Assembly (NCBI RefSeq): GCF_018279165.1
Contig: NZ_CP047289.1
Coordinates: 1,805,001-1,869,000, forward strand
Direction of reading: 5' to 3'
Length of the DNA: 64,000 bases
Origin: Falsirhodobacter algicola
Lineage (GTDB): Bacteria; Pseudomonadota; Alphaproteobacteria; Rhodobacterales; Rhodobacteraceae
Numbering within the stretch: the first letter of the stretch is position 1; every line of letters begins with the position of its first letter. A program made the position numbers and the translations under genes. The notes below the pieces were generated by a model. The model was not told the DNA's origin. It did no database searches and saw only the letters and a program-made list of their open reading frames with translations. Below, piece by piece: positions 7,792-64,000 of this stretch.

Positions 7792-7892
7792 GGGCAGGGT
7801 CTCCTTGGATGCCAGCCATAGGGCAAAGCCCCGCGCCGGAAAACCCGTTTCGCGCTGGACAGGGGCCACCGCCGCCCCTAAATCCCCGGTGA

Positions 7893-7971
7893 ACCTCGGG
7901 GTGCCTTCGGGCTGAGATGCGATCCGCGAACCCGTCGAACCTGAACCGGCTGATACCGGCGGAGGGAAGGT
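7893..7971 (+). ncRNA. TPP riboswitch (THI element) upstream of thiBPQ
   Basis: The leader contains the diagnostic THI-box segments in the right order: CTCGGGGTGCC, GGCTGAGAT, then AACCTGAACCGGCTGATACC and GCGGAGGGAAGGT. ACCT at 7893-7896 can pair with AGGT at 7968-7971 as helix P1. It ends 40 bases before the thiB start codon, with a CCCCTTTTCT stretch in between. Thiamine pyrophosphate binding should shut down the thiamine transporter when the cell is replete. Confidence 0.95.
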
Positions 7972-8011
7972 GCAGCGCAAGCCCCTTTTCTGCCGAGACG
8001 AAGGAGGAACC

Positions 8012-62086: not shown

Positions 62087-62913
62087 CCGAGAACGAAATC
62101 CCGCGTCGCGGCATCGACCTCGGGGGCATGGCCGAACCACCGCTCAAAGCCGGGCGCGGCCTGATGCAGCAGCATTCCAAGGCCGTCCACCGTGGTGCAG
62201 CCCATCTGCCGCGCCTCGGCCAGAAGCGCGGTTTCCAGCGGGGTATAGACGATATCCGTCACCGTGGCCTTCGGCGACAGCGCATCGAGCGGCACACGGA
62301 AGGCCGATTTTCCGGTCATGCCAAGCGAGGAGGTGTTCACCACCGTCATCGCATCCTCCAGCATGTTGGCGGCCTGTATCCAGTCATGGACGATCACGCG
62401 GGGGCCGAAATCGGCACGCAGCCCTTCGGCCCGGGCGCGGGTACGGTTGGCGATGCGGATCTCGGGAACGCCGGCCTCGATCAGCGCGGCGATCACCGCG
62501 CGGGCCGCACCTCCGGCTCCGATCAGCGCGGCGGGGCCAGCCTTGGCATCCCAGTCCGGCGCGCCATGGCGCAGGTTCGCCAGAAAACCGGTGCCGTCGG
62601 TGTTGTCGGCATAGATCCGGCCATCGGGCAGGAAGGTCACGGTGTTGGCCGCCCCGATCAGGGCCGCACGGTCGGTGACGACATCGGCAATGCCGAGAAT
62701 CGCCTCCTTATGCGGGATCGTGACGTTCACCCCGACGAAACCGGCCTTGGGCAGGGTGCGGATGACCTCTTCCAGATCCAGCCCCCCGACATCCATCGGG
62801 ATGTAATGGCCCCGCAGGCCATAGCGCGACAGCCAATAGCCGTGAAGCCGCGGCGAAAGGCTGTGCGCGATGGGGTGCCCGATGACCCCTGCGAGCGGAA
62901 TGGATTCAGCCAT
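62083..62913 (-). CDS. aroE: Shikimate dehydrogenase
   Basis: The 276-residue NADP-dependent enzyme reduces dehydroshikimate. It shows GVIGHPIAHSLSPRLHGYWL, NVTIPHKE with the catalytic Lys, NTVTFLPDGRIYADNTDG and the Rossmann loop LIGAGGAARAVIAAL plus ANRTRARAE for NADP. It overlaps maf by eight bases and coaE by four. Third shikimate gene of the window. Confidence 0.96.
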   Translation of the reverse strand: MAESIPLAGVIGHPIAHSLSPRLHGYWLSRYGLRGHYIPMDVGGLDLEEVIRTLPKAGFVGVNVTIPHKEAILGIADVVTDRAALIGAANTVTFLPDGRIYADNTDGTGFLANLRHGAPDWDAKAGPAALIGAGGAARAVIAALIEAGVPEIRIANRTRARAEGLRADFGPRVIVHDWIQAANMLEDAMTVVNTSSLGMTGKSAFRVPLDALSPKATVTDIVYTPLETALLAEARQMGCTTVDGLGMLLHQAAPGFERWFGHAPEVDAATRDFVLG

Positions 62914-63502
62914 CCAAAAATCCCCGATTCGTCATCCAATTCAGCAGCGGCAGCAGCGGCAGGCCCATGATGGTGAACCAATCGCCGCGAATCTCGGTGA
63001 AGAGACGCACGCCCTCCTCCTCCAGCTTGTAGCCGCCGACCGTATCTAGAAGGCCGGCGCCGTTCCGGGCCAGATATCCGTCCAGCCACGCATCCGAAAA
63101 CGGGCGCATCACCATCCGGGCGGTGGCGACATGACGCCAGACGGGCCGGGCATCCTCATAGACCACCACGGCCGAGACGAGATCGTGCGCGCGCCCCCGA
63201 AGGCGGCAGAGCTGATCGCGGGCGGCGGCGGAATCTTCGGGCTTGCCCAGAACCTGCCCGTCCATGACAAGGACCTGGTCACTCCCGATCACCAGTGATT
63301 CCGGATGACGCTCGGCGATTTTGCGCGCTTTCATCTCGGCCAGCGTGTCGGCGATGTCGCGTGGCTTGGCCTGCTCATGCTCCAGCGAGGCGCGGATCGC
63401 GGCCTCGTCGATCCGGGCGGGAATCGCTTCGGCATCCAGCCCTGATTTTGCCATCATCTGGCGACGGGCTTCCGAAGATGTGGCGAGAATAAGGCGTTTC
63501 AT
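62906..63502 (-). CDS. maf: Maf family nucleotide pyrophosphatase
   Basis: The 198-residue protein hydrolyses non-canonical or excess nucleoside triphosphates. It begins LILATSSEARRQMM (family LASxSxxR motif with Thr), then MKARKIAERH, VIGSDQVLVMDGQVLGKP and DTVGGYKLEEEGVRLF. It is the first gene of maf-aroE-coaE-dnaQ, so the operon reads away from the adjacent oriC candidate. Confidence 0.94.
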   Translation of the reverse strand: MKRLILATSSEARRQMMAKSGLDAEAIPARIDEAAIRASLEHEQAKPRDIADTLAEMKARKIAERHPESLVIGSDQVLVMDGQVLGKPEDSAAARDQLCRLRGRAHDLVSAVVVYEDARPVWRHVATARMVMRPFSDAWLDGYLARNGAGLLDTVGGYKLEEEGVRLFTEIRGDWFTIMGLPLLPLLNWMTNRGFLDG

Positions 63503-63915
63503 CTTTGGGCGAATCTGTGGAGGAATCGGGGTCGAATCGGGCGCATGGCTAAGTGGGAAATTTTCCCGGCTGGTCAGGGTTGGGACGACTCATGCAGAAA
63601 GTCAAGATTCGGCCCGAGGTTATCCACCTGTGGACGTCCGTTACCCCCGCCTGTGGACATCTGGAAAAGCCCTGAGTCGCCACCACCCTTCCCACAGAAT
63701 TATCCACAGCTTTCGGACCTGCGAGATATTCCTTATTTGCATGGCTTAAAATGGAAAAATGGTACAATCTGCCGGGATCCGTCCCACATGAACATCCACA
63801 GGCGAAAGGGGGGCGGAAAAGCCTGTGCAAGGGCGCAGGGATTCACTTATCCACCCCCCTTACATCATCTTCTACTTTCTTCTTATAAATCCTTTTTAAG
63901 AGAGAAGGAGCGCAC
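63503..63915. other. Putative chromosomal replication origin (oriC)
   Basis: This 413-base gene-free stretch between maf and hemJ has a cluster of DnaA-box sequences: TTATCCACA exactly at 63700-63708, TTATCCACC at 63620-63628 and 63847-63855, and weaker sites at 63629-63637 and 63652-63660 (minus strand) and 63792-63800. Two AT-rich tracts follow boxes, at about 63728-63770 and 63857-63906; the latter could be the unwinding element. Short open frames here are not believable genes. In alphaproteobacteria the origin commonly lies near hem genes, which supports the call. Confidence 0.75.
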
Positions 63916-64000
63916 ATGTCCGACCTGTTGATCGGGGCCTATCCGTGGATCAAGGCGTTTCACATCATCGCGGTCATCGCGTGGATGGCGGGCTTGTTCT
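63916..64000 (+). CDS. hemJ: HemJ, protoporphyrinogen IX oxidase (5' part only)
   Basis: Only the first 28 codons are inside the window. They read MSDLLIGAYPWIKAFHIIAV and continue IAWMAGLF, matching the start of the HemJ family, including the heme-binding histidine in KAFHII and the first membrane helix. HemJ oxidises protoporphyrinogen IX in haem synthesis. The ATG at 63916 follows AGAGAAGGAG. It reads away from the oriC candidate. Confidence 0.85.
   Translation, partial: MSDLLIGAYPWIKAFHIIAVIAWMAGLF

Follow-up and report, generated by a model that had tools for sequence, protein, structure and literature searches.

The 413-bp intergenic gap between maf and hemJ is very probably the replication origin (oriC) of the 2.28-Mb main circular chromosome of Falsirhodobacter algicola. 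This reading is based on a cluster of DnaA boxes within the gap, a switch in GC skew in its neighbourhood, the order of the flanking genes, the nearby parS sites and parB, and conservation among relatives. It fixes the likely origin, and hence both replication arms, of this chromosome. The window, that is, the whole 64-kb stretch of DNA that was analysed, corresponds to G000:C1:1805001-1869000; contig C1 comprises 2,279,458 bases in an assembly of six contigs and 2,779,574 bases. We regard C1 as a closed circle because an 836-aa frame crosses its joined ends with its Pfam domains split between them: a Na/H exchanger domain lies before the join and, after it, a cyclic-nucleotide-binding domain runs from profile position 21 at the first residue. 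A long frame on the opposite strand crosses the join as well; such frames are common in GC-rich DNA.

The start codons of maf (63502, minus strand) and hemJ (63916, plus strand) border the region directly, so 63503-63915 is the entire intergenic gap. The two genes diverge from it, maf closing the gap on the left and hemJ on the right, which agrees with the earlier description of genes reading outward on both sides. The features of the gap and its flanks are as follows.

62906 to 63502, minus strand: maf (Maf-like nucleotide pyrophosphatase), left neighbour, from NCBIfam matches below their cut-offs and gene order.
63503 to 63915, no strand: oriC candidate, the 413-bp maf/hemJ intergenic gap, from its boxes, the nearby skew switch and the relatives kept.
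63516 to 63524, minus strand: weak DnaA-box-like site TCCTCCACA, two mismatches, beside maf; 9/9 columns invariant in the window and three Falsirhodobacter sequences.
63620 to 63628, plus strand: DnaA box TTATCCACC, one mismatch; 8/9 columns invariant in the four sequences.
63652 to 63668, minus strand: two weak box-like sites starting at 63652 and 63660, two mismatches each; 2/9 columns invariant at 63652.
63700 to 63708, plus strand: DnaA box TTATCCACA, exact; 9/9 columns invariant in the four sequences.
63721 to 63770, no strand: AT-rich tract (0.66 AT) past the exact box, a putative unwinding or spacer region, from AT content.
63792 to 63800, plus strand: weak DnaA-box-like site ACATCCACA, two mismatches; 6/9 columns invariant.
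63847 to 63855, plus strand: DnaA box TTATCCACC, one mismatch, the final box ahead of an AT-rich tract; 6/9 columns invariant.
63861 to 63915, no strand: AT- and pyrimidine-rich tract (0.65 AT) from the final box to hemJ, from AT content.
63916 to 64000, plus strand: 5' end of hemJ, right neighbour, running past the window end, from TIGR00701.

HemJ (L003:1916-2353) scored 140.4 bits against TIGR00701, above the cut-off of 138.05. Both matches of the left neighbour fell short of theirs (NF002690, 210.7 bits against 269; TIGR00172, 112.2 bits against 117.15), and the name maf therefore rests on these sub-cut-off matches together with gene order. The curated NCBIfam cut-offs were exceeded by hemJ, aroE, coaE, dnaQ, rho, mnmE, mnmG, and rsmG, and ParB passed its NCBIfam domain cut-off. 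Within 9 kb beyond the gap lie rho, mnmE, mnmG, rsmG, a parA-like gene, and parB; the parA-like gene, between rsmG and parB, matched the ParA-type ATPase families AAA_31 and CbiA (Pfam).

We scanned for 9-mers differing from TTATCCACA at no more than two positions, using 2000 dinucleotide shuffles of the gap as the null. The gap contains one exact copy (shuffle mean 0.001; equalled in 2 of 2000 shuffles), three sites within one mismatch (mean 0.07; equalled in none), and seven within two (mean 1.03; equalled in none). The sequence-only reading had reported six box-like 9-mers within 240 bases, one exact at 63700 and two with a single terminal change; the scan confirmed these, placing six of the seven sites in 236 bp (63620-63855) and identifying the singly changed boxes as those at 63620 and 63847. 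No denser box cluster occurs in the window, which in total holds 6 sites within one mismatch and 64 within two. The octamer TTATCCAC has 12 exact copies on C1, three of which fall within 235 bases of each other in the gap; elsewhere no two copies lie close together. The three good boxes hold their positions in the four-sequence Falsirhodobacter alignment, with base changes in some. Over the whole genome (2.78 Mb) the octamer is found 19 times, compared with 44 times for its letters reversed; strong DnaA boxes may possibly be avoided outside the origin.

GC skew was sampled rather than computed over the whole chromosome, in 50 pieces covering 340,000 of the 2,279,458 bases and lying more densely near the gap; one 4-kb piece overlapping another was left out before fitting. 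A free two-breakpoint fit gave C1 1,855,001 as the origin and 896,501 as the terminus (R2 0.455), and none of 300 permutations fitted as well, albeit narrowly (best permutation 0.450 versus 0.455). Bootstrap origins fell between -29 and +39 kb of the gap (5-95%) and within 50 kb in 290 of 300 resamples, while the antipode of the gap, at 0.729 Mb, lies inside the 5-95% bootstrap range of the terminus (0.640-0.925 Mb). A search for a dif-like pattern (at most two mismatches) gave no match, so that the terminus is placed by skew. Because the 50-piece sample was denser near the gap, we reran the analysis with 40 roughly even pieces (240,000 bases), the origin and terminus being set opposite each other. 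The skew contrast was 0.0336 at the gap and 0.0340 at the best place (1,785,000), compared with -0.0039 at hemE and 0.0121 at dnaA; none of 2000 permutations reached the score of the gap, and the bootstrap range was -139 to +141 kb (5-95%). Within the window, the cumulative skew minimum fell at 53-55 kb, approximately 9-11 kb off the gap. The dense sample thus narrows the origin to tens of kb and the even sample to about +-140 kb, and neither has its best point at the gap itself. A skew minimum elsewhere on the chromosome had been named as evidence against an origin here; the sampled switch lies in the neighbourhood of the gap, on a scale coarser than the gap. Skew accordingly indicates an origin in this neighbourhood, and the boxes and gene order indicate which gap. 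Codon-position skew by gene strand was noisy and was set aside.

Only two exact parS sites were found in the entire genome, at C1 1,872,054 and 1,873,929 (3 and 5 kb from the gap); a further match with two mismatches lies at C1 1,878,044, and the best ParB match at C1 1,875,409. Both exact sites overlap the first codons of genes, mnmG and rsmG, respectively (L003:5053 and L003:6924; C1 1,872,053 and 1,873,924), so that these partition sites form part of coding sequence. On the chromosome, a second match to ParB_N (32.6 bits) was observed at G000:C1:1796400-1796600, 8.4 kb before the window, and each of C2-C6 carries one or more ParB_N matches.

A search of named genomes with HemJ returned at least 583 confirmed places, and we kept the best 80. 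Among these 80 relatives, maf and hemJ face outward in all, and the gap between them measures 390-449 bases in 79; the exception, a Rhodobacteraceae MAG (L128), has hemE between them (L128:2975-4024) and is the only one of the 80 loci with HemE. Every one of the 80 gaps has a box within one mismatch (two or more in 70, one only in 10), and an exact box is present in 37 and absent from 43. The mean number of sites within one mismatch was 2.9 per gap, compared with 0.09 expected from the flank rate. A search of the genus Falsirhodobacter matched the region in seven of seven genomes, although in G001, G002, and G006 only in parts; HemJ identity to Falsirhodobacter is 88%. Together with the skew neighbourhood, the gene order, and parS/parB, the 80 of 80 relatives kept uphold the original suggestion that this is the chromosomal origin.

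Could the gap instead be a DnaA-regulated divergent promoter of maf and hemJ, with the true origin elsewhere within some tens of kb? Skew alone is too coarse to settle position, and the AT-rich tract, directly next to hemJ, could contain the promoter of that gene. No other exact-octamer cluster was found on C1, however, and a maf-adjacent oriC has been described for the family (PMC4793288). Moreover, in L128 the boxes and a similar AT tract sit between maf and hemE, so that in this one genome they go with maf and not with hemJ. We consider this alternative, with the origin outside the gap, very improbable. L128 alone suggests that hemE can move away from an origin that remains beside maf, and its maf-hemE-hemJ order is perhaps the older arrangement.

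In many bacteria oriC lies at dnaA, and in Caulobacter the classical marker is hemE. An origin at either gene can be given very little credence here, although hemE borders the Caulobacter origin that was identified by experiment (PMC1914354): both genes lie at distant positions (hemE match at C1 58,216, 469 kb from the gap; dnaA match at C1 1,291,118), the surrounding 9 and 10 kb hold one and no site within one mismatch, respectively, and the skew contrast is near zero or weak (-0.004 and 0.012 versus 0.034 for the gap). The expectation of a hem gene beside the origin held for hemJ, but not for hemE. That box-like words merely clustered by chance is hardly credible either; the four sites with two mismatches, of seven in all, hold little information, yet none of the 2000 shuffles matched the counts at one or two mismatches, and 40 of 54 columns are invariant in six sites (63660 omitted), compared with 94 of 359 elsewhere in the gap, across the window and three Falsirhodobacter records.

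It is established that DnaA opens bacterial origins in general, and for this oriC we infer DnaA binding, the opening site, helicase loading, segregation, and firing from such known biology. DnaA would occupy the three good boxes, one exact and two near-exact, and accumulate over the weaker sites; the AT-rich tract between the final box (63847) and hemJ would open, followed by helicase loading and two outgoing forks, and ParB, bound to the pair of parS sites 3 and 5 kb off, would help to separate the copied origins. The AT-rich tracts noted from the letters alone were recovered: AT content is 0.64 at both 63726-63775 and 63851-63900, compared with 0.32 in the window. In all 80 sequences compared (the window and 79 relatives), the bases 60 to 10 before hemJ are AT-richer than their own gap. 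L128 was omitted from this count, from the alignment, and from the trio counts since its gap contains hemE; there, a similar AT tract, judged by eye, precedes hemE. The tract at 63861-63915 is most likely the unwinding element, and is possibly also the promoter or leader of hemJ.

This oriC opens no long-standing question; of some interest is the manner in which the tract next to its final box opens. We applied the DnaA-trio rule of PMC8287927, as a box with at most two mismatches followed by at least three NAN trios beginning within 16 bases. The gap formally conforms, with three trios at a spacer of 8, but a fraction of 0.77 of shuffles equal that. Among gaps with a box (78 of the 80 examined), 21 had at least three trios and six reached a shuffle p of 0.05 or less. 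A trio reading (box, C-rich spacer, then CTT CTA CTT) looks good by eye and did no better than shuffles. It is rather unlikely that the pyrimidine-rich tract (CTTACATCATCTTC...), from the final box to the first gene of the operon, is a lineage-specific, non-trio unwinding element; if it were, the basal mechanism would act in a variant form at the origins of Rhodobacteraceae. The tract often reads CCTAC...ATCATC in relatives, and a loose pattern, derived from the same sequences in which it was counted, matched 34 of 81 gaps (47 lacked it, including L128) as against 3 places in 1.88 million flank bases on both strands. Equally, the tract may be a promoter. Among the papers listed by a literature search, none concerns an unwinding element of Rhodobacteraceae origins, judging from titles and abstract openings.

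The oriC is an ordinary one, with the same gene neighbourhood as its relatives, and belongs to a maf-adjacent kind that is already known. Based on DoriC, an oriC adjoining maf is described as conserved in Rhodobacteraceae, and that of Ketogulonicigenium vulgare Hbe602, in the same family, was predicted with Ori-Finder and DnaA boxes and is likewise maf-adjacent (PMC4793288). No substantive difference from this kind was apparent at the level of overall arrangement, as distinct from a base-by-base comparison with K. vulgare, and box number and sequence vary by species. With Ori-Finder and curation, oriC has been placed in 101 Rhodobacteraceae, which was impossible in eight strains; the curation drew on the GC-disparity minimum, a local GC minimum, and a position close to parAB (PMC6699656). 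As expected from these accounts (PMC6699656; PMC4793288), the gap adjoins maf, has a local GC minimum, and lies near parAB; it also sits at a skew switch, at a sampled resolution of between tens of kb and +-140 kb, and has an above-chance cluster of DnaA boxes (0/2000 shuffles at one and two mismatches). The main-chromosome origin oriC1 of Rhodobacter sphaeroides was similarly identified via cumulative skew and partition loci (parABS), a likeness in means of identification rather than base by base (PMC6315104). Among the papers listed in a search on Falsirhodobacter genomes, none concerns the origin, judging from titles and abstract openings.

The gap resembles Cori of Caulobacter crescentus in its length (approximately 400 bp), its several DnaA boxes, its raised AT content, and a heme-synthesis gene as neighbour (PMC1914354). 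Unlike Cori, for which hemE and COG1806 serve as markers (PMC1914354), it is flanked by hemJ and maf and by neither of those genes; this genome (99.9% complete) gave no match to PF03618 (COG1806), while the Caulobacter control was positive. Again unlike Cori, the gap has no match to IHF (WATCAN5WTR) or strict CtrA (TTAA-N7-TTAA) motifs, and these absences, together with the single exact box and a best skew point outside the gap, are among the weak points of the oriC reading. Two overlapping matches to a loose CtrA motif (TTWW-N7-TTWW) are present at 63883-63897 (plus strand) and 63885-63899 (minus strand). Elsewhere in the window, a TPP riboswitch was detected at 7887-7984 on the plus strand (Rfam RF00059, 66.3 bits).
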